Shown here one piece after another: positions 48,945-60,139 of a stretch of 64,000 bases of DNA (positions within the stretch are counted from its first letter, which is position 1; every line of letters begins with the position of its first letter). Position numbers and translations under genes: made by a program. Under the pieces are notes generated by a model. The model was not told the DNA's origin. It saw only the letters and a list, made by a program, of their open reading frames with translations, and ran no database searches. This stretch comes from Bacteroidales bacterium (GTDB lineage: Bacteria > Bacteroidota > Bacteroidia > Bacteroidales > P3), in the NCBI GenBank assembly GCA_017449525.1, contig JAFTFL010000016.1:62001-126000 (forward strand), given 5' to 3'.

Positions 48945-50042
48945 ATGCTCCGCCCCCTTCTTCATCTGCTGATTCGCGCCCCCTTGCCGCTTCACCACCG
49001 CTGGCGATGGACGTTGCGCATGACACGATGGCTGTTCGACAAGCATTTCCCCGAGCGCAAGCCCGAATTGGCCACGGCATTTTCCACTCTGCCTCTTGAC
49101 GCGTTGCACACGGCAGAACAAGGTAAGTCCGCCACAACGCGTAGCGAAAACTCTCTCAACACCTCCCTATCGGATAGACACGTCCCCATCTGCTTGTGCA
49201 TGGTGCGCAATGATTTGGAACGAATGCACCTTTTTCTGCAACACTACCGCCTCTTGGGAATCACGCACTTTGCCATCATTGACAACGCCAGTACCGACGG
49301 CACGCGCAAACTACTCGCAGCCCAACCCGATGTAGACCTTTACAGCATGGACATTTCATTCAGCGGCGTGCGCAAGAATGCCGCCCTCAATCGACTCTTG
49401 GCTCTGTATGGAGAAGGACGCTGGTATCTTGTTGTCGACAGCGACGAACTGCTGTGCTACCACGGCATGGAGCAGCACTCGCTATCCGACGTAGTGCAGC
49501 GCGCCGAGGTTCTTGGCCACAGCGCGCTACGTGGATACATGGTGGACATGTATGCTGAGCAAACAGACCTCGGCCATATGCTTCGTGCCGAAACGATTGA
49601 GTCCACCTGCTGTCTGTACGACACAGATAGTTACCAACTGTGGAACATTCCGCTACCCAATAGTGTATGGGGAGGACCTCGCCAACGTGCATTGGACAAC
49701 AAGCAACTGCTGATGAAGACCCCACTGTTTCGACACACGCGCAAAAACTTTATCGCCACCTGCCACTACCTCTACCCCGCATCGACGGCCGCCCCCTACG
49801 TCTTTGCCCTGCGCCACAACAAACTCATCGGTGCACAGGACGTTGCAAACTATCGCGAGCGTTTGCTGCAAGGCTCAATGCTGGCTGGCTCTATGGAATA
49901 CAAAGGCTACCATCTCGAAGCCTCGACACCAACTGCCCCCAACTTCCGTTATGCCAACACCGCCCGATGGGTAGACAACAAAGCAGCTTTAGACACCCTG
50001 CCTTATCTGTACAACCTCTTCACCGACAAAACTACCATCTAA
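48945..50042 (+). CDS. GT2-like (Glyco_tranf_2_4) glycosyltransferase
   Basis: A 365-aa protein of the family typified by 'VPICLCMVRNDLERMHLFLQ', 'YRLLGITHFAIIDNASTDGT' and the DxD-like 'YLVVDSDELLCYHG'. These GT2/GT92-like enzymes often occur in capsule and LPS clusters. The N-terminal 80 residues are basic and less conserved, so a later start cannot be excluded. It precedes an SGNH gene by 8 bp. Confidence 0.86.
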   Translation: MLRPLLHLLIRAPLPLHHRWRWTLRMTRWLFDKHFPERKPELATAFSTLPLDALHTAEQGKSATTRSENSLNTSLSDRHVPICLCMVRNDLERMHLFLQHYRLLGITHFAIIDNASTDGTRKLLAAQPDVDLYSMDISFSGVRKNAALNRLLALYGEGRWYLVVDSDELLCYHGMEQHSLSDVVQRAEVLGHSALRGYMVDMYAEQTDLGHMLRAETIESTCCLYDTDSYQLWNIPLPNSVWGGPRQRALDNKQLLMKTPLFRHTRKNFIATCHYLYPASTAAPYVFALRHNKLIGAQDVANYRERLLQGSMLAGSMEYKGYHLEASTPTAPNFRYANTARWVDNKAALDTLPYLYNLFTDKTTI

Positions 50043-50050
50043 AACAAGCC

Positions 50051-50986
50051 ATGATCCGCTTCCTTCGCCGATTGCTGGTCTTCTTGCTGATCTGCATCAT
50101 TCCCCTCTGCCTTGTAGAATTCTATGGCACACACTACCTCCATAGTCTGAACCACTACGCCGTGGAGCCATACGCCGACTTCATGCGGCAGGGTCCCGCC
50201 GAGCGCGGGGTGAACACCCTCGTCATGGGAACCTCTCGCGCTTGGGTGCAGTACAATCCCGCCATACTCGACAGCGTTCTCGGCACCACCACCTACAACA
50301 TGGGTTGCGACGGGAGAATGTTCAGCACCATGATGTTGAAATGGAATACATATATTTTTACAGGAAACCCAATCCCCTCATTTATCATATTCGACGTAGG
50401 TCCATTCGGATTGGAACTTGATAATGAAAGAGGCTATGAGCGTGAACAGTTTTATCCATATATGATCAATTGTCGCCCTATTCGCCAATTTGTTTGGCAG
50501 GGGAGTTTTTGCAACTTCTTTGAAAAATTTTTTCCTGGGATCCGATACTTCGGCATCCACAACTTCAAAAGTAACAATTGGAACGAACCTTACCATTTGG
50601 ATGGATACAATGGCAAGGATTTGAAGTATAATGACTACATGCTTCAGAAGACTAATGCTTTCGATTACATACACAAACCAGAGGCCATTGCTCTAATGGA
50701 AAAATTTCTCCATGATTGCGACAGTATGAATATTGACGTTGTCTTGGTTCTATCTCCCATCTACATAGAAGGACAGGAAAAGATAAATGACATTGCTGCA
50801 ATGAAACGACTTTACGAGGATATTGCAGTGCGACACAACCTCCCCTTGCTCACCTACACCGATAATTCCATGTGCTGCGACACTGCCAACTTCTACAACG
50901 CTACCCACCTCAACGCACTCGGAGCCAACCGTTTCAGCCGCATGCTAGCTCACAACCTCAACAGCATGGGGATTGTATCAAAATAA
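50051..50986 (+). CDS. SGNH-fold membrane-anchored protein (DltD/AlgJ-like)
   Basis: A 311-aa protein with an N-terminal membrane anchor ('RRLLVFLLICIIPLCLVEFY'), nucleophile block 'TLVMGTSRAWVQYNP' (GTSR where relatives have GDSR) and C-terminal 'NATHLNALGANRFSRM' carrying the catalytic His. It probably receives acyl groups from the MBOAT protein. The end of the gene is identical over 41 bp to the SGNH gene at 53280. ATG 50051 is used, since the upstream open frame lies in the previous gene. Central part 50340-50830 is markedly AT-richer than the ends. Confidence 0.78.
   Translation: MIRFLRRLLVFLLICIIPLCLVEFYGTHYLHSLNHYAVEPYADFMRQGPAERGVNTLVMGTSRAWVQYNPAILDSVLGTTTYNMGCDGRMFSTMMLKWNTYIFTGNPIPSFIIFDVGPFGLELDNERGYEREQFYPYMINCRPIRQFVWQGSFCNFFEKFFPGIRYFGIHNFKSNNWNEPYHLDGYNGKDLKYNDYMLQKTNAFDYIHKPEAIALMEKFLHDCDSMNIDVVLVLSPIYIEGQEKINDIAAMKRLYEDIAVRHNLPLLTYTDNSMCCDTANFYNATHLNALGANRFSRMLAHNLNSMGIVSK
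50882..50922 (+). repeat. 41-bp exact repeat, copy 1 (SGNH genes)
   Basis: Identical to 54132-54172 in the other SGNH gene. It encodes the catalytic-His segment 'TANFYNATHLNALG'. Flanking sequence is also similar, suggesting duplication or gene conversion. Confidence 0.85.
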
Positions 50987-51023
50987 GTCCACACCAATTA
51001 TTATATCCTCACTCGTTCATTCG

Positions 51024-52058
51024 ATGAAAAACTTTCTTCGTAAAGTTGTCTATATAAGGGCGTACAATCTCAATCTTCTGAAATTGTTACTGTGGAAAAT
51101 ACAGCGACGCGATATCATAGCCATTAATGCGACCTGTGGCTTGGGTGATTACCTGTGGATTCGCAACTATTTGCCTCTTATCCATCAACAACACCCCAAC
51201 AGCAAAATCCTACTAATCGCTCTTGTTCGAAACAGAGCATTTATACAACATGTTGATAGTAAAAATGTAGATGCACTGCATTGTTTTATGCACGATGCTT
51301 TCTTTCCTGATTGGCGAGACACCCTATTACTGCGAATGTTTCGTATGGATGTGTATCTTGACTTTTTTGCCTCGGAACGAAAGAATTTGGCGAAAGTTGT
51401 AAAGACACGAGTAAGATATGAAAACGTGAGATCCAAGCCACTGTTCTGTCGCGAACAAAACGACCTATTCGTATCGCAGTTCATTCATTTTGCTGCCCCC
51501 CTTTCCCACACGCTCCCTATCTTCCCGATAACAGACGAAAGTAAAATGAAAGAAATAAGCCACCCATTCGCCATTGTGGTTGAAGAGGGGAACAGTCAGG
51601 GGCGGTTTAGCCGTGAGCAGTTGTCGGCTTTCGTAACTCATCTGCTTGGCAAAGGACTAAGCATCTTCTTCAACGGCAACTACACCGAGCTTTGCAACTA
51701 TCTCCCCAAAGAGCAAACCGTCAACATCATTGACGGCTATCGCTATCCGCTACACGAGTATATGTACGTCATCAAGCATGCACGCTTGATGGTTACGCCC
51801 AACACGGGACTCTACCACTTCGCCACGCAACTCGGCTGCCCCTGTGTGGTAACGACTCTACGCGAATGTTTGACCCTCGACATGGACAATCCCATTCAGC
51901 AACATCTGCTCGACCCAAAGTTGGAAGAGGCCTATCGCACACAAGGAATCGCCAACCTTTGTCCCTATGGCTATTACGAATGTGACCAAACAGTATTTCC
52001 CATCGAGCAACTCCTCTCGGCCATCGACGACCTGCTGGCAAAGACCGAAAAGGAATAA
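51024..52058 (+). CDS. GT9 (heptosyltransferase-like) glycosyltransferase
   Basis: A 344-aa GT-B enzyme resembling ADP-heptose-type GT9 transferases: 'INATCGLGDYLWIRNYLPLI' with the GD motif of the N-terminal loop, and 'VTPNTGLYHFATQLGCPCVV' as the nucleotide-sugar-binding C-terminal segment. Sugar donor is not predictable. ATG 51024 is preferred to the TTG at 50973 that lies inside the previous gene. A decayed copy follows at 52170-53208. Confidence 0.8.
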   Translation: MKNFLRKVVYIRAYNLNLLKLLLWKIQRRDIIAINATCGLGDYLWIRNYLPLIHQQHPNSKILLIALVRNRAFIQHVDSKNVDALHCFMHDAFFPDWRDTLLLRMFRMDVYLDFFASERKNLAKVVKTRVRYENVRSKPLFCREQNDLFVSQFIHFAAPLSHTLPIFPITDESKMKEISHPFAIVVEEGNSQGRFSREQLSAFVTHLLGKGLSIFFNGNYTELCNYLPKEQTVNIIDGYRYPLHEYMYVIKHARLMVTPNTGLYHFATQLGCPCVVTTLRECLTLDMDNPIQQHLLDPKLEEAYRTQGIANLCPYGYYECDQTVFPIEQLLSAIDDLLAKTEKE

Positions 52059-52169: not shown

Positions 52170-53208
52170 TTGTTGAACATCCATATAAACGATGGGCTTA
52201 TCTCTCCACGGGATACGCTTGCTATGTTGACAGGAGCCACACATGATCGGCATCACGCTGCATCGGTGCTCATGTTTCTTTTGTGGAGACTAAAAAAACG
52301 CGTCATCGTCATCAACGCAGCGTGCGGACTATGCGATTACCTTTGGATGCGTCCCTATTTTCATATAGTTAAAATTACACCTTGCACAAAACTCAGTAGC
52401 ATCAATTAAACTTTTCCCCTATTCATCTGCTACGATCCGACAGCCTTTCCATTGCCAGCCGTGGAAATGAGACGCTACACAAAAGAATAGTTCGCGCCCC
52501 AAAGGTGTACGGTACCGACGATATCTGACCAATATCCTTACCACTACAAGACTTTGGTAAGGATATTGGTGAGGGCTATCAGGGAAATAAGGTAAACACC
52601 AAAATCAGCCCCCAACACATCACCGACCTCATGCGCTTGATCCTGCCCGTACCACAGGGATTTCGCCTGACATTGCCTGTACTGCCCATTGAGGACGCGG
52701 GGCGGCTGGCCGATCTGTAGCAGCTGTACGCCGTCGTTGTGCTTGGCGGTGTGTCGCAAGGCATCTTTTCAATAGAGCAGCTGAAAGGCATCATCACTAC
52801 CCTACGTAGCAAAGGATCGCGCATCTTCTTAAACAATAGCAGTACAGAACTTTGCAATAATCTTCCTAAAAAACAAACCACCTACATCATCGGCGAATAT
52901 CATAATCCGCTGCACGAGTACATGCACGTCGTAAAACAGACGCGCCTAATGGCTATGCCCGACATGGAGTTCTACTACTTCGCCGTGCAATATCATCGCA
53001 TGCTGTGTGGCATGGACTGCGGATTCACTATCGAATGACAAGCCGTCCGCAGCGAGAAGTCTTCAACCCCGAACTGCAAATGGCATGGGACAATCACCGG
53101 CTCGACCCCTATCAAAGCAACGAGAATCTGCGCCGCGCAAATCTTGACACACCGCGCATCCTCTCGGCCATCGAGAGCCTCTACGTTCACACAATGTCCG
53201 ATCTCTAA
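52170..53208 (+). pseudogene. Decayed tandem copy of the GT9 gene
   Basis: Three blocks in different frames match the preceding gene in order: 'LLWRLKKRVIVINAACGLCD' (about 52277-52340, cf. 'LLWKIQRRDIIAINATCGLG'); 52600-53030 with 'LPVLPIED', a TAG stop at 52718-52720, then 'SQGIFSIEQLKGI' and 'CNNLPKKQT' and 'NPLHEYMHVVKQTRLM'; and 53041-53208 ending 'RILSAIESLY'. Frameshifts, an internal stop and a scrambled middle show it is non-functional. Confidence 0.85.
52529..52569. repeat. Perfect 14-bp inverted repeat inside the GT9 pseudogene
   Basis: CCAATATCCTTACC (52529-52542) and its exact complement (52556-52569) are separated by 13 nt. The parent GT9 gene shows no such palindrome at the matching place. 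There is no T-run after it, so a terminator is unlikely; it may be an insertion or rearrangement scar. Confidence 0.7.
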
Positions 53209-53279: not shown

Positions 53280-54248
53280 ATGCCTAAAGTTCTTCTCCGC
53301 ACCTTCCTCTTTTGCCTTATGGGCTACGCCGCACTGCTGACAGCAGACTTGTGCCTCAGCCGCCACTATGCCGTGCTGCCCGTACGGCAAATAGCCTTAT
53401 GGCAGAACATCTTCACCCACAGCATGGCGGCGGACTACGACTGCCTTTTTGTGGGCGACAGCCGTGTCATGCAGGGCTATAACCCCATGATTGTTGACAG
53501 CCTGTTGGGGACGCACAGCTACAACCTGGGGCTCAGTGGCCGCTCTTGGCCCACGCACGAGTTGCTACAGAAGGTCTACCGTCGCGAAGCGTATCCATCC
53601 CCTAGGCTGATGCTGGTAGAGCTGGACTATCTCCTCTTCTATCACCGCGAACAGCCCGACGAGATAGCACAGTTCTATCCGTTCTACTACACCGACCTTG
53701 ACATGCACCGCTTCTTGCTGCGCAAGAACACCCTCTCACCTCGAGCTCGACTAGTACCGCTGTGTCGCTACATTGGGCGCGACCGCTCCATTATGGACGA
53801 GACCATGCAGTGGTGGGCAAAGTGGCAAAACGAGTACGATAAGCAGCAGGGCTTTACTCCTGTGCATCTACACATAGGTACGCCCTACACAGACTCGTCC
53901 GAAACGAAACTTCTCCACCACGACCGCATCGAGGTGGAGCATTTCGAGATTTTTCTGCGCCGCTGTCGCAAAGAGGGCACAACTGTGGTGCTGATAACAA
54001 GTCCTACCCACGAAAGCTATTGGCAATGCCATGTGAAAGATAGCGCAGCGACCTACACCATTTTCGACAGCCTATCGCACCGGCACGGCCTCACTTGGCT
54101 CGACTACACTCACAGTCCACTCTGTCACGATACTGCCAACTTCTACAACGCTACCCACCTCAACGCACTCGGTGCCGACCGCTTCAGCCGCCTGCTGGCT
54201 CACGACCTCGACAGCCTCGGCTTGGGGCGGAGAAGAAGGGTACAGTAG
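53280..54248 (+). CDS. SGNH-fold membrane-anchored protein (DltD/AlgJ-like), second copy
   Basis: A 322-aa paralogue of the gene at 50051. It keeps a classical nucleophile block, 'CLFVGDSRVMQGYNPMIVD', and ends with 'TANFYNATHLNALGADRFSR'. The N-terminus is a membrane anchor ('TFLFCLMGYAALLTADLCL'). A role in O-acetylation with the MBOAT protein is inferred. It is the last gene of the locus and is followed by a strong terminator. Confidence 0.8.
   Translation: MPKVLLRTFLFCLMGYAALLTADLCLSRHYAVLPVRQIALWQNIFTHSMAADYDCLFVGDSRVMQGYNPMIVDSLLGTHSYNLGLSGRSWPTHELLQKVYRREAYPSPRLMLVELDYLLFYHREQPDEIAQFYPFYYTDLDMHRFLLRKNTLSPRARLVPLCRYIGRDRSIMDETMQWWAKWQNEYDKQQGFTPVHLHIGTPYTDSSETKLLHHDRIEVEHFEIFLRRCRKEGTTVVLITSPTHESYWQCHVKDSAATYTIFDSLSHRHGLTWLDYTHSPLCHDTANFYNATHLNALGADRFSRLLAHDLDSLGLGRRRRVQ
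54132..54172 (+). repeat. 41-bp exact repeat, copy 2 (SGNH genes)
   Basis: Identical to 50882-50922; see that entry. Homology outside the exact block continues with a few substitutions to the end of both genes. Confidence 0.85.
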
Positions 54249-54667: not shown

Positions 54668-56305
54668 TTAAAATCCCATGCCGAAGTAGCTCCACAACTT
54701 TTCCTCGAGTGTACGCCACGAGTCGGACGTGCGGTCGTAGACCTTCAGTGTGGCATCGTTGAGCACGGCAGTGGCCATGCGGTGGGCATTGGCCACCTGC
54801 TCGTCGGTCTGCACGTGGGCAAACATAGCTTTCACCTCGCGCTCAACAGCGACTACTTCGGCAAAGGCGCGGTCTTCCTGCTTGCCCACTTCGCTCATCA
54901 TCATCTGCTTGGTGTTTTGCCATGCCACTGTAGCCAGCTTATTGGCTTTACGGTACTTCCAAATGATGGCGTTGGCTTCATAGGCTTTCTGCCCACAAAG
55001 GCTGAAGGCTTGCGGCAGGCTGGTGGTGCCAGCAAAGATGGGTATGCGAGGCGACTGGCCAGGGTTGTCCACTGCAAACCAGCATACGCCGCCCACCTCG
55101 TCGGGCAGCCAGTCGCGCAGCTGTATCACGTGGGAATAGGAGCACCAGGCAACGCTGACGGTACGGCGAAACTCTATGGTGCCTGGCGCGATAAAGTTGA
55201 GCATCTGCTGCATACGACCCGCCAACCACGGATTAGCTACTGGACTGACGACGGTGTCGGGCGTGGGCTTGTTTTTGCTTTTTACCGTAGTGCGGACGTT
55301 TTTGCACATGTCGAAGTCGGTGCCTTCGTAGGTAGATCGAAAGAGTTCGATAACCTTACGCACATCCACATTCTTGTCTGGCACTACGGAGAAGGGTAGC
55401 GTGTCCATATCCATTGACAGGTGAAGCGAAGGAGCCAGCGCATTGAGGATAAAGAACTCGCGTTCGCGGAAGTTTTTGCCATTGGCGTAAGAGGCATTGA
55501 AGGCTTTCCAGAAGAGGAACTCGCCCTTGCCGTCCCAGAGGTTGAAGTTGCGCGCCACGCGCTCGCAGTTGTCCGAGCAGAGGAAGTAGTCTGGGTTGTT
55601 GCGCTGCAGACGGCCAATACGCGGTATGTTGGCCGACACGCCCACGTGGTTGTCGGGGATGCGCTGGGCAGCCCACACGCCCCCTATTTTCTTGGGGCCT
55701 TCGCCCAGTATTTCCATTTGCCACACCTCGTTCTTGTCGGCAATAGTGATGCATTCTCCCGCATCGCCGTAACCGTACTGCTGCACCAGCCGACCGATTA
55801 GCCGGACGGCGGCACGCGCATTGTCGCACCGTTGCAAGGCTATACGCTGCAGCTCCTCAATGGTGAACATGCCCTTGGGGTTCTTCAGCACATCGGGGCC
55901 ACCGAAGGTGGTCTCGCCCATGGCCAACTGCTTTTCGTTCAGGCAGGGGTAGGCCGTATTGACATAGGCGTAGGTGTGCATGGCTTCGGGGATACGCCCC
56001 ACCACCTTCACCCCCGTCGTATCCTCGCGATAGGTCGTATGCATCGTGCCTGTGCGCACCTCGTGCATAGCACCGGGCTGGTGGTCTTGCGCAGGCTCGA
56101 TAGAGACCCACGTGCGGTAGCGTCCATCGCACGTATGCGACGTAATGACTGAACCATCAGACGATGCTTTCTTTCCCACCATGATGCTGGTGCAGGACTG
56201 TCCTTCGTAGTGCTGCATGTCGTCCGCTGCGGTGGAGCCCAACTGCTGTGCCCACAGGACAACCGACGATGCCAACATAGCCCATAGGATAAACGTTCTC
56301 TTCAT
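54668..56305 (-). CDS. C69-family dipeptidase
   Basis: A 545-aa exported Ntn-hydrolase of the C69 (PepD) family. A signal peptide ending near VVLWAQ and a short propeptide precede the catalytic Cys38 in 'GQSCTSIMVGKKASSDGS', exposed by self-cleavage. Further family sequence includes 'SHTCDGRYRTWVSIEPA', 'MGETTFGGPDVL' and 'GECITIADKNEVWQMEI'. It would cut dipeptides in the periplasm. It is the last gene of a four-gene operon, 12 bp after the M20 gene; with MurL and MurD2 upstream it could process cell-wall-derived peptides, but this is inference. Confidence 0.93.
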   Translation of the reverse strand: MKRTFILWAMLASSVVLWAQQLGSTAADDMQHYEGQSCTSIMVGKKASSDGSVITSHTCDGRYRTWVSIEPAQDHQPGAMHEVRTGTMHTTYREDTTGVKVVGRIPEAMHTYAYVNTAYPCLNEKQLAMGETTFGGPDVLKNPKGMFTIEELQRIALQRCDNARAAVRLIGRLVQQYGYGDAGECITIADKNEVWQMEILGEGPKKIGGVWAAQRIPDNHVGVSANIPRIGRLQRNNPDYFLCSDNCERVARNFNLWDGKGEFLFWKAFNASYANGKNFREREFFILNALAPSLHLSMDMDTLPFSVVPDKNVDVRKVIELFRSTYEGTDFDMCKNVRTTVKSKNKPTPDTVVSPVANPWLAGRMQQMLNFIAPGTIEFRRTVSVAWCSYSHVIQLRDWLPDEVGGVCWFAVDNPGQSPRIPIFAGTTSLPQAFSLCGQKAYEANAIIWKYRKANKLATVAWQNTKQMMMSEVGKQEDRAFAEVVAVEREVKAMFAHVQTDEQVANAHRMATAVLNDATLKVYDRTSDSWRTLEEKLWSYFGMGF

Positions 56306-56317
56306 AATATTCGCTGA

Positions 56318-57478
56318 TTATAATGTACTACAAAAATCTCTCAGAAGCCCGACGTACAGGTTGACGATGACCATCAACAACTCGTCGGGAAAATCATAAT
56401 CGGGGTGATGCAACTCGACATGCGTAGCACCAGCCCCCACTCCTACCATCACTCCAGGGTACAGCTGCAGGTAGTTGGCAAAATCCTCCGACCAGCGGAA
56501 AGGCTTTTCACGCATGCACACATCCCATCCTTCCGCACCACACACTCGGCGCAATCGCTGCAACCATGTAGGGCTTACCTCGGTGGCACGAAAGGCTTCC
56601 GCTTGGGTTATCTCGTATAGCAGACCCTGCTCGGTGGCAATGCGTTGAACCGTCTGCTGCGCCGCGCCGAACAAGGTTTCCATAGAACGATTGCTATAGG
56701 TGCGCAGCGTGTAGCCCACCGATGCATCGCCAGGCGAGGTACCGAAAGCTCGTTCGCCCATGTGCAGAAAGACGGGCGTGATAAGACGAAACGCATCTAT
56801 CCCCTGTGCGCTATCGTTCCAACGCATCAGTTCCATCGTCAACTGCGCCATGGCAGCAGCCGGATTCTTGCCCAATTCGGGTGTCGACGCGTGAGTAGTG
56901 CGTCCCCGCAGTGCCACACCTATTCCACACGAAGCTGCCGCAAAGGTGGGCTCAGCACACACAATCTGCCCCATCGGATAGCCCGGCACATTATGCACAG
57001 CATAACAAACCTGTATATTATACACTTGCAGCACCTGCTCCTCCAGCAACTTCCTGCTGCCCTGTCCTGTTTCCTCTTCTCCCTGAAACACCAGCACGAT
57101 ATTACACCTCGTGAAGTCGAGCCAGCTTGGGTGATCGGTAGCGAACAGTTCGTGGGCGAACGCAAGCAGCGCTGCACTATGTCCGTCATGGCCACACTTG
57201 TGGGAGACTCCCGGCGTGCGTGAACAATACGAAAAATCTGCGCTCTCCTCGATAGGAAGGGCATCAGTATCTGCACGAAAGAGAATGGTTGGCAGGCTGG
57301 GCTCCATGCCCCACACCGCCACCACACTGTGGCCACCTACGTGAGAGAAGACCTTAGTCGGACAAAGGGGAGCTAACCACTTCAAAATGCAATCATGCGC
57401 ATACAGCTCCATTCCAGACAACTGTGCGTGCGCATGCAAATCATGGCGTAGTGCTATAGCTGAAGCCAAGTCTCTCAT
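56318..57478 (-). CDS. M20-family amidohydrolase
   Basis: A 386-aa cytosolic metallo-amidohydrolase of the IAL/hippurate hydrolase type: 'LFRADTDALPIEE' (metal ligand D), 'HKCGHDGHSAALLAFAHEL' and 'LVFQGEEETGQGS' with the catalytic Glu pair, and 'YAVHNVPGYPMGQI'. Homologues remove acyl groups from amino acids or cut small amide substrates. Its start overlaps the murD2 stop by 4 nt, so expression is tied to the MurD2/MurL pair. No signal peptide is seen. Confidence 0.92.
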   Translation of the reverse strand: MRDLASAIALRHDLHAHAQLSGMELYAHDCILKWLAPLCPTKVFSHVGGHSVVAVWGMEPSLPTILFRADTDALPIEESADFSYCSRTPGVSHKCGHDGHSAALLAFAHELFATDHPSWLDFTRCNIVLVFQGEEETGQGSRKLLEEQVLQVYNIQVCYAVHNVPGYPMGQIVCAEPTFAAASCGIGVALRGRTTHASTPELGKNPAAAMAQLTMELMRWNDSAQGIDAFRLITPVFLHMGERAFGTSPGDASVGYTLRTYSNRSMETLFGAAQQTVQRIATEQGLLYEITQAEAFRATEVSPTWLQRLRRVCGAEGWDVCMREKPFRWSEDFANYLQLYPGVMVGVGAGATHVELHHPDYDFPDELLMVIVNLYVGLLRDFCSTL

Positions 57479-58761
57479 GCGTGTTCCGTTATGAGTTGCT
57501 TGAAGAGGTGGCCTCGCTCTTCAAAATTCTTGAACATATCGTAGCTTGATGCCGCCGGCGACAAAAGGCACACAGCATCCTGCCGTGTTGAACCAAAGCA
57601 CCAATCCACAATCTCATGATAATCGTCCGACAGAAGCACATGATGGTGTTCGCGCCACCGCAACGATTGTGTGCAAAGCTCCCACATTCTGCGTCCTGCT
57701 TTACCTACAAAAGCAATGTTGCGAACCGCCCAGCCTTTTGTAGCCGTATCGGTTAAGTAGGCAGCCAGCGGCGTATAGTCTATACCACGGTCATTGCCTC
57801 CGAGTACCAGTGTATCTACCTCGCATAGAGCCTCTACGGCAGCCATGCATGAGGCTGGAATAGTAGAAATAGAGTCGTTGTAGAACCGAATGCCGTGCTT
57901 CGTGCACACATATTCCATGCGATGCTCCAACCCATTAAAGTTGAGCATCGCCTTTTCTATATCGCTGTCGTTGATACCCATCATGCGCGCCACACGGGCT
58001 GCCACTTCGGCATTCAACCAGTTATGTCGACCGACCAATTGCGGCGAAGCATGCTGCCAACGCGCTACATCTGCACCGCCATAGGTTTCCACATGCGAAA
58101 CAACCCTCGGAAGAATGTGCGTCATCATGAGCCTCAAATCCTCACTTTCACTGCAATAATAGAAGTAATCATCCTTCCCCTGCCGCAGTGCCATGTTCAG
58201 TTTGGCCAACTGGTAGTCCTCATAACTGCGGTAATGGTCAAGATGCTCCTGATACAGGTTAAGGCACACTCCCACATGAGGGCTGCGCGTCAAAATCTCG
58301 AGTTGATGGCATGAAAGCTCGCAGACAATCAGCGTTTGCGCATCAATATCGGGTATCACCTCGAAGAGTGGAATACCAATATTGCCTGCCAGCAATACAT
58401 TGTCCGAGTAGGCACGTAGTATATGGTATATAAGGCTGGTCGTGGTACTCTTGCCCTTAGTGCCTGTAATACCAATGGTCTGTTGGGCAAAGCAGCGCAG
58501 AAACACATCGGTTTGGGAGCTGACTCGATGCTCAACTTCAATACCATCGAAGACTGACATCGGCACACCAGGCGATTTCATAATCAAGTCAAAACTATCA
58601 TTGGCTGCCGCATTGCGAATAGCCTCATTCCCCTCTACAACCACAATTTCTCGGGCACATCCCAGTGTGCGCAGTAGGGCGTGAGTGCTGCGTCCCTCGC
58701 GTCCATAGCCTGCTATCAAGACACGTTTGTCTTTAAATATTTCAGTCAGCCCACTCTCCAT
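57475..58761 (-). CDS. murD2: MurD2-type UDP-MurNAc-L-Ala:L-glutamate ligase
   Basis: A 428-aa Mur ligase. It has the MurD-like N-terminal 'RVLIAGYGREGRSTHALLRT', the ATP loop 'GITGTKGKSTTTSLIYHIL', the central 'NLYQEHLDHYRSYEDYQLAK', and the C-terminal 'LGGNDRGIDYTPLAAYL' and 'LLSPAASSYDMFKNFEERG'. Alone it would be called MurD, but it overlaps the murL gene by 20 nt. In Xanthomonas the MurD2-MurL pair adds L-Glu to UDP-MurNAc-L-Ala and then epimerises it. L-Glu specificity is therefore inferred from context. Whether the organism also has a standard murD/murI is not visible here. Confidence 0.85.
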   Translation of the reverse strand: MESGLTEIFKDKRVLIAGYGREGRSTHALLRTLGCAREIVVVEGNEAIRNAAANDSFDLIMKSPGVPMSVFDGIEVEHRVSSQTDVFLRCFAQQTIGITGTKGKSTTTSLIYHILRAYSDNVLLAGNIGIPLFEVIPDIDAQTLIVCELSCHQLEILTRSPHVGVCLNLYQEHLDHYRSYEDYQLAKLNMALRQGKDDYFYYCSESEDLRLMMTHILPRVVSHVETYGGADVARWQHASPQLVGRHNWLNAEVAARVARMMGINDSDIEKAMLNFNGLEHRMEYVCTKHGIRFYNDSISTIPASCMAAVEALCEVDTLVLGGNDRGIDYTPLAAYLTDTATKGWAVRNIAFVGKAGRRMWELCTQSLRWREHHHVLLSDDYHEIVDWCFGSTRQDAVCLLSPAASSYDMFKNFEERGHLFKQLITEHA

Positions 58762-60139
58762 CTTGTAGAATATGTTGCAAGCAGGAGCGTTCTGCCTCGT
58801 TCAGATTACTCTCTTCACCAAGAGAATGCAGCAGTTTTTCCACATCGGTGCTCAAATCTACAGCTTGATAATCGCGCAGTAGAACAGGCAACGGTTGTGC
58901 GCAATAATACCTATTCAACGCCATGCACAACGCCGCATTTACTTCGCTGACCGTGCCGACGCACTCAAATGGTTTCACAGGCAAACGGCCCGTCAACTGG
59001 TCAAACTCGCGTCGGCAAGCCGACTCGTTCAACATGTCCTTCCCAAACATGCGCTGCAACTTCGTGGGCTGAAGGAACGGCGATAAGATAATGTAGGCAA
59101 ACAGACATTTGGCGCAATGCCCGCACCACTCATCCGTCTTGCTTCCCACATTGCAACTACGGAACACATCATGGTATTGATCCAGTCTCGCAAATAGACT
59201 GGCTATCTGCAATTCGGTCAAAGGTCTTAGAAAACTGAAATATCGCACCTCGGGCGAAATGTATTCGGCCACGTATCGGCGGAAGTCTTCCTCAAACTCA
59301 AACGACTTAGAGTATTGGTGATTCACACTGCTGCCGAGCACCGTCGACTCATTAGCCGAGGACTCGTTGGATAGTGCCACATTGGCTTCACCACTCATGG
59401 CCAAGGCCAGAAGCGTATAGAACGCCAGCATGGCTGAGAAAGGGGTATGGCCATTCAGACATCCGTGGCGGTTCTGCTCCAGCATCACAGGGCAGAGTGT
59501 CCTATATATATATAAGGTGTGCGCCACATCATATCCACCGCGTTCGGCACACCCCACCGTGGCACCTCGTGGGTTCATGATGAGAGGCCGTATGCCTTCA
59601 GTTGCACCCTTGCGCATCGTCCGCAGTGCTTCCAGTGTTACCACCGAGTCCTTTCCCCCTCCTATCGGCACCAAATAATTGTTCTTATTGAGATGCAACT
59701 GCTGCATCGGTCTACTGTCCAAGGCGAGTTGCAGTGCATCAATTGTCATAAAATCATCCTGCGTGGCCTCAATACCATTGAGGTAAAAGAACTCGCCCAG
59801 CCCATGATAGTACAACTTCTTCCAGAATGCAATCTGTTCCCCCGTCAGCGAGCCGCATGACACCTCCACCAGAGGAGGGCAGAAGCACTTCCAATAGCTC
59901 ACCAGTTCCGCCATGCCAATGTTGAAAACAAGAACATCAAGCGTCTCCTTGTCGAGGTGCTTGATACTAAGGAATGGTCGGGATGGGACAAACGCCGTTG
60001 GACGAAACACGATATCATCGCCCACACGAAACTCGAACGACAAGTGCAACCCGTCAGTCTCTGGCCTCCACTCATAGCCAGAATAAACAAACGTCGGGTA
60101 GCGATGTCTGTATTCAACATACTTAGCTTGGTTGCTCAT
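58742..60139 (-). CDS. murL: MurL, UDP-MurNAc-L-Ala-L-Glu epimerase
   Basis: A 465-aa ATP-dependent epimerase that converts the terminal L-Glu of UDP-MurNAc-L-Ala-L-Glu to D-Glu, an alternative to glutamate racemase. Family hallmarks are the PP-loop-like 'VPIGGGKDSVVTLEAL', 'NRHGCLNGHTPFSAMLAFYT', 'LSNESSANESTVLGSSVNHQ' then 'YSKSFEFEEDF', 'FSFLRPLTELQIASLFARLD' and the cysteine motif 'DEWCGHCAKCLFAYIILSPF'. It is the first gene of the operon murL-murD2-M20-C69, and its end overlaps murD2 by 20 nt. Confidence 0.92.
   Translation of the reverse strand: MSNQAKYVEYRHRYPTFVYSGYEWRPETDGLHLSFEFRVGDDIVFRPTAFVPSRPFLSIKHLDKETLDVLVFNIGMAELVSYWKCFCPPLVEVSCGSLTGEQIAFWKKLYYHGLGEFFYLNGIEATQDDFMTIDALQLALDSRPMQQLHLNKNNYLVPIGGGKDSVVTLEALRTMRKGATEGIRPLIMNPRGATVGCAERGGYDVAHTLYIYRTLCPVMLEQNRHGCLNGHTPFSAMLAFYTLLALAMSGEANVALSNESSANESTVLGSSVNHQYSKSFEFEEDFRRYVAEYISPEVRYFSFLRPLTELQIASLFARLDQYHDVFRSCNVGSKTDEWCGHCAKCLFAYIILSPFLQPTKLQRMFGKDMLNESACRREFDQLTGRLPVKPFECVGTVSEVNAALCMALNRYYCAQPLPVLLRDYQAVDLSTDVEKLLHSLGEESNLNEAERSCLQHILQDGEWAD

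Follow-up and report, generated by a model that had tools for sequence, protein, structure and literature searches.

A predicted MurL–MurD2 route to D-glutamate and a conserved C-terminal piece of MurD in Bacteroidales genomes

MurL and MurD2 in a Bacteroidales genome

The stretch of DNA analysed here, a window of 64,000 nucleotides (nt) at G000:C4:62001-126000 in the 2.53-Mb, 94.65% complete assembly of a Bacteroidales bacterium, carries a row of four genes encoding MurL, a MurD-type ligase (MurD2), an M20 amidohydrolase and a C69 family dipeptidase (Table 1). The murL and murD2 frames overlap by 20 nt, murD2 and the M20 gene by 4 nt, and 12 nt separate the M20 and C69 genes; the open reading frame (ORF) coordinates thereby bear out the gene set and spacing described in a first-pass annotation of this DNA. 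On another contig of the same genome, the dcw cluster reads ftsI-murE-mraY-[180-aa ORF]-ftsW-murG-murC (L011, G000:C14), and the 180-amino-acid (aa) ORF in it is a C-terminal stub of MurD. We think it likely that MurD2 and MurL replace glutamate racemase (MurI) and the catalysis of canonical MurD, and that the dcw murD has been reduced to a C-terminal piece that is under selection and has a non-catalytic role.

Table 1. Genes of the murL locus in the window and the MurD stub elsewhere in the genome
Feature	Coordinates	Strand	Position	Length and family match
murL	58742-60139	minus	window	465 aa; NF041275, 253.8 bits, E 2.3e-75, residues 16-406
murD2, predicted L-Glu-type MurD ligase	57475-58761	minus	window	428 aa; TIGR01087, 271.3 bits, above cut-off 211.95
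M20 amidohydrolase	56318-57478	minus	window	386 aa; TIGR01891, 171.8 bits, above cut-off 153.75
C69 family dipeptidase	54668-56305	minus	window	545 aa; PF03577, 190.6 bits, above cut-off 23
MurD C-terminal stub	G000:C14:222889-223428		between mraY and ftsW	180 aa; MurD profile 269-423 only, 72.7 bits

The first-pass annotation had proposed that murL and murD2 form an alternative D-glutamate pathway, and that proposal holds up. Profile searches found no match anywhere in the window's genome to the PF01177 Asp/Glu racemase family and none to the glutamate racemase model TIGR00067, control hits being obtained in Bacteroides ihuae among others; the D-amino acid transaminase model TIGR01121 had no match above its cut-off there, the best scoring 40.5 bits. 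The window ligase is the sole MurD above the TIGR01087 cut-off in the whole genome, and no murI is detectable, with murD present otherwise only as the C-terminal piece in dcw. The ligase carries E182, I319, R348 and Y416 (here and below, positions follow E. coli MurD with the first Met not counted). In Xanthomonas MurD2, Glu197 and Arg358 set the use of L-Glu, their E. coli MurD counterparts being Asp182 and Lys348, and the substitution K319T makes E. coli MurD accept L-Glu, as described in the accessible part of PMC8788868. E182, I319 and R348 recur in 14/14 aligned Bacteroidales MurD2 proteins. A wider set of 75 MurD2 taken from named records is almost as uniform: 74 have E182, 74 have I319 and 74 have R348, the last two each falling once in a gap, in a gene that its contig end cuts short. 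D182, K319 and K348 are found in every full-length dcw MurD compared (37/37 from MurL genomes and 14/14 from MurI genomes).

The two enzymes for D-glutamate also exclude one another across the order. Among 295 Bacteroidales genomes, 100 have MurL matches, of which we counted the 97 at about 290 bits or more, leaving out three weak ones of 80, 36 and 24 bits (G052, G075 and G188); TIGR00067 lies above its curated cut-off in 178 and below E 1e-15, our definition of a strong MurI, in 180. A good MurL and a strong MurI are found together in 0/295 genomes and neither is found in 18 (Fisher p 7e-60, kinship ignored). In a phylum-wide draw of 296 genomes MurL turned up in the window's own alone; outside the order it is rare at least in that draw. 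Nor is the pairing with murD2 a chance arrangement, because, of the 29 loci read in other genomes, 28 have murD2 directly after murL or in one gene with it (4 fused), the single exception, L032, having no MurD2 within its 1.5-kb flank. Fusions are also present in 11 of 80 named loci, and each of the three genomes that the order draw contains from the same family has one.

The view that MurL and MurD2 supply the D-glutamate of the wall here, standing in for glutamate racemase and for catalysis by canonical MurD, is thus well supported in silico, with the activities of both enzymes being what we infer from their sequences. That the ligase still takes D-Glu from an unrecognised source, with MurL having some other task, is very unlikely: weak class-IV aminotransferase matches do exist, including the one of 40.5 bits noted above, but across 80 genomes not one rises above the cut-off for D-amino acid transaminase, the ligase residues are of the L-Glu type, MurI is excluded, and MurL adjoins or is fused to the ligase in nearly all loci read.

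The closest described counterpart is the pair XOO_1320/XOO_1319 of Xanthomonas oryzae, which likewise sets a MurD-like ligase beside MurL in a genome with no D-Glu-forming gene and whose ligase has Glu (E197) and Arg (R358) as its pair of specificity residues, according to the part of PMC8788868 available. Unlike Xanthomonas, Bacteroidales have I319 and Y416 as well, fused genes in some relatives and the C-domain stub of canonical MurD in dcw. The taxa for which MurL or MurD2 is named in the portions of the literature available are proteobacteria and actinobacteria, together with cyanobacteria, a fungus and an amoeba at low similarity; Bacteroidota are not named in those portions (PMC8788868 among the sources). 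No description of the MurL distribution in Bacteroidales was found in the open-licence literature searched, a search that did not extend to subscription papers. The 19 named MurL loci nearest to the window come from metagenome-assembled genomes labelled as Bacteroidales or Bacteroidetes or as the Bacteroidales genus Ca. Colimorpha. Two MurL-MurD2 pairs in records labelled Firmicutes/Clostridia, L225:7983-10668 (Pseudobutyrivibrio xylanivorans DSM 14809) and L227, have 45-47% identity to the window MurL and probably represent inter-phylum transfer; the L225 ligase is the one exception at position 182 among the 75, with Asp in place of Glu.

MurL itself has been said, in the part of PMC8788868 at hand, to have no known conserved domains. 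The window MurL contains a PP-loop-like GGGKDS at residues 160-165 and a four-cysteine motif, C329(x)9C339xxC342xxC345, and both GGGKDS and C(x)9CxxCxxC are invariant in 47 MurL sequences; the QueC family motifs, SGGxDS and C(x)8CxxCxxC, differ from these by one letter and one spacing. The structure model has a QueC/QatC-like fold, consistent with a predicted activation of the substrate by conversion of ATP to AMP. Other comparisons gave nothing: PF06508 did not match MurL at E<=0.001 (the only match being PF19932, 22.2 bits and under its cut-off), the sequence matched no solved structure under E 0.66, PADLOC returned no match, and Foldseek alone found none for the model in the PDB at E<=0.001. 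Identity to the QueC family proteins QueC, Cap9 and QatC (PMC13279940 and PMC13329287, in the parts available) is about 10-20%, and the predicted MurL substrate, a nucleotide-linked peptide, differs from theirs. A QueC-like fold would give MurL a testable active site.

A C-terminal MurD stub in the dcw cluster

The 180-aa ORF occupies the murD slot and aligns with the C-terminal part of canonical MurD. It scores 73.6 bits against TIGR01087, short of the cut-off of 211.95, and the N-terminal and central ATP-binding domains of MurD are not present, with hardly any of the central domain remaining in a protein of 180 rather than about 445 aa. Key ligand residues are altered, K319, T321 and K348 being replaced in the window's genome by A, V and T. 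Judged from its sequence, the stub cannot be a working ligase, because the P-loop domain is gone and K319, K348 and T321 are changed.

Among the 97 MurL genomes, 37 from 19 families have the stub, 55 have a full-length murD (in 4 of them the contig ends within it) and the other 5 gave no murD match; mraY is unassembled in three of these five and stands without a MurD-like neighbour in the other two (family f78). In none of the 75 MurI genomes tested does a stub fill the murD slot; one of the 75, G188, is divided between two contigs. Weak or partial second MurD matches occur in the MurI genomes G006 (a 111-aa piece) and G062 (a 182-aa open frame, 38.6 bits). The order mraY-stub-ftsW is kept in 37 of 38 stub loci, the remaining contig ending before mraY, and the stubs are 176-199 aa long, exactly 182 aa in 18 of 38. 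D317 is kept in all 38, P411 in 36 and S410 in 35, as against K319 and T321 in 22 each, K348 in 7 and H267 in 1. An assembly artefact was dropped as an explanation, the ORF being intact in 37 genomes. We found no MurD C-domain-only protein described in the open-licence literature searched; subscription papers lay outside that search, and novelty is to that extent uncertain.

Two further genomes bear on the range of the stub. G242 (L139:2086-2883), 68% complete and without a detected MurL in an otherwise MurL-bearing family, has a 265-aa version with an insertion in the C-domain. G015 (L130:1989-2561), a 98% complete Bacteroidales genome, has only a 190-aa MurD stub in dcw; neither MurL, in a single-sequence search, nor MurI was detected. 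As to the genomes with a longer gene, L057:697-2037 is an example of a full-length canonical murD (D182, K319, K348) in a MurL genome where no glutamate racemase was found. Class-IV aminotransferase-like matches (E<1e-18) are present in 20 of 37 MurL genomes with full-length murD versus 2 of 38 stub genomes; a link between full-length MurD and D-amino acid transaminase was nevertheless dropped, since with the tree taken into account the difference is not significant (median p 0.25) and 0/80 genomes had a match above the cut-off.

The stub is kept under purifying selection. In the 4 of 13 close stub pairs with unsaturated dS, dN/dS is 0.054, 0.061, 0.077 and 0.15, and third codon positions differ most in all 13 pairs; with dN/dS this low, a pseudogene was dropped from consideration.

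How often did it arise? The stub appears to have originated by repeated truncation of murD, to judge from trees that leave out about 30% of the full-length murD genes of MurL genomes. On a tree of the flanking genes MraY and FtsW built from 97 genomes, 18 changes of the stub label are required, well-supported branches forcing 8 or more of them; placing all stub hosts in one clade lowers the log-likelihood by 425.6 and is rejected (p 3e-48). Eight families contain the two forms side by side, and in three of them both occur under a single genus code (g7, g36 and g51). The main rival, that the stub arose once and then spread among Bacteroidales via recombination at the dcw slot, would fit the C-domain alignment with all 38 stubs, in which a tree constrained to one clade is 1.6 log units better (p 0.53), and also the fact that 30 of the 38 begin at a shared, conserved internal Met. 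However, once long branches are removed, leaving 18 stubs and 20 full-length genes in a set picked after the first tree had been seen, the C-domain does reject one clade (p 0.0004); 4 or more changes are forced and one origin is recovered in 0% of 200 bootstraps. Stubs instead group with full-length relatives (G049 with G159/G252, G227 with G012, and G100/G200/G285 with G196). With the flanking genes also rejecting one clade of hosts, we hold a single origin to be possible but doubtful, perhaps one chance in a few, and prefer repeated truncation.

It is less likely still that the stub is a decaying remnant, retained only since a short ORF couples mraY translation to ftsW. The dcw slot is tightly packed, ligand residues have been lost to varying degrees (H267 is left in 1/38 stubs, K348 in 7/38 and K319 in 22/38), and stub branches are longer than those of full-length MurD C-domains, that is, the stubs evolve faster, all of which count in favour of decay. 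Yet the dN/dS of 0.05-0.15 in unsaturated pairs, the near-constant length in 19 families and the retention of D317, P411 and S410 speak for a selected product, and strict translational coupling is not general because the gap between stub and mraY varies from -58 to 274 nt.

An internal start codon and a possible role for the stub

Why keep one end of a ligase? We suspect that the piece had, or gained, a use of its own, and MurL genomes with a full-length murD probably also make a C-terminal piece from an internal start codon. The start Met of the stub lies at one alignment column in 30 of 38 stubs, and full-length MurD has a Met at that column in 36 of 37 genes from MurL genomes and 12 of 14 from MurI genomes (hereafter MurL and MurI genes). 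Bacteroidota have no Shine-Dalgarno sites; their starts are A-rich and unstructured, with A favourable at -3, -6, -12 and -13 (PMC6847099, in the part available). In the 36 MurL genes, the sequence before the internal Met is A-rich, AT-rich and unstructured relative to the remainder of the gene (percentiles 0.81, 0.86 and 0.92), with no such enrichment at 232 other internal ATGs (0.52, 0.48 and 0.47).

A codon test, in which the protein is held fixed and synonymous codons are reshuffled, addresses the same three measures (A, AT and lack of structure); genes without the Met were excluded, 1 of 37 and 1 of 14 MurL genes and 2 of 14 and 6 of 40 MurI genes. The 36 MurL genes exceed their shuffles (0.73, 0.70 and 0.72; p 9.8e-5, 1.9e-4 and 2.9e-5), as do 13 held-out MurL genes fetched afterwards, less strongly (0.66, 0.71 and 0.75; p 0.11, 0.026 and 0.0081), and the signal is limited to about 10 codons each side of the internal Met. 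The 46 MurI genes (12 and 34) have no synonymous-codon signal there, all p>0.15. Taken as family means, the signal stands in 28 MurL families (p 4.9e-4, 3.8e-4 and 1.2e-4) and is absent from 31 MurI families (p 0.56, 0.12 and 0.71), the two groups differing at p 0.011, 0.074 and 0.0017. At -13, -12 and -11, A is found at 67, 69 and 80% of MurL internal sites and 68, 66 and 76% of stub starts, versus 28, 54 and 57% of MurI internal sites. The divergence of the N-part relative to the C-part of full-length murD has a median ratio of 1.23 in MurL versus 1.10 in MurI genes, from pairs that are not independent, which agrees with an extra constraint acting on the C-part of MurD in MurL genes.

We therefore propose a sequence of events in which MurD2-MurL would have taken over the chemistry of glutamate racemase and canonical MurD, the MurD C-domain had or gained a separate use, perhaps produced from the internal start, and many lineages then kept only that domain, leaving dcw murD cut to its C-terminal piece. 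In its fullest form, to which we give an even chance, the murD of MurL genomes would be a two-product gene, specifying a ligase and, from the conserved internal start, its C-domain as a separate assembly or regulatory protein, with the upstream part later deleted several times independently and the same short product left.

The stub most likely preserves some function of MurD other than catalysis; it might, for example, interact with the MraY-MurG-FtsW machinery or regulate MurD2 or MurL. A scaffold role is reasonable because individual Mur enzymes bind MurG, MreB and MraY (PMC4929429, in the part available), and by analogy with the MurC-F ligases on MurG/MreB scaffolds, in which a Mur ligase domain can be structural, the C-domain stub could possibly serve in this way. 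Those fused or scaffold-bound enzymes are intact ligases, however, whereas the Bacteroidales stub is a ligase reduced to one domain (the same part of PMC4929429).

Several observations weigh against this account as a whole. The window MurL reaches only 253.8 bits against NF041275, a Xanthomonadales model whose cut-off is 700. At 94.65% completeness, the absence of a single gene from this genome proves little. Of the 97 MurL genomes, 55 retain a full-length MurD that looks catalytically intact although MurI is absent. At the internal Met, A at -6, a known positive determinant, is found in just 18%, and several of 12 control columns deviate significantly in the codon test, mostly downwards, the opposite direction. 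The faster evolution of the stubs and the failure of the full C-domain alignment to reject a single clade, both given above, count on the same side.

If the account is true, 97 of the 295 sampled Bacteroidales, about a third, use a D-glutamate route whose descriptions to date come from proteobacteria and actinobacteria, and the effect of racemase-directed and MurD-directed inhibitors on gut and rumen communities changes with it. The stub would then be a natural separation of function, in which MurD catalysis is lost and one domain kept, making the non-catalytic role of Mur ligases, long suspected from scaffold studies, directly testable.

Neighbouring peptidases and other genes

The M20 and C69 genes are lineage-specific neighbours of murL-murD2. 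We surveyed 80 named MurL loci, of which the 19 nearest to the window are L161-L179; at least 1.2 kb after murD2 is available in 17 of these and in 49 of the 61 farther loci. Sixteen of the 80 have an M20 gene no more than 500 nt after murD2, every one of them among the 19 nearest, and 0/61 farther loci do; in 8 of the 80, C69 follows M20 at a distance of up to 200 nt, and in one more it is 1.3 kb away. The first-pass annotation had suggested that the four genes could work as one unit for the supply and recycling of precursors, with the peptidases feeding L-Ala/Glu-type substrates, and had made conservation of the peptidases beside murL a test of it: they are conserved in close relatives and not beyond, and as a general feature the unit is not supported. 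We consider it improbable. The spacing is tight, and the block recurs, whole or partial, in close relatives, but it is missing from the 61 farther loci, 49 of them long enough to show it, and C69 would not act on cytoplasmic precursors if, as it looks, it is exported, its N-terminus resembling a signal peptide (judged by eye). C69 scores 190.9 bits against NCBIfam NF033678, short of that cut-off of 250.

Elsewhere in the window, a 99-aa ORF (52739-53038) aligns across 81 aa, at 56% identity, with a nearby glycosyltransferase-like ORF of 361 aa (50973-52058), in the downstream half of the latter, and is likely a partial duplicate of it. The ORFs at 49667-50986 and 53280-54248, with 33% identity over 292 aa and a common FYNATHLNALGA motif near the end, are by sequence comparison a divergent tandem pair.

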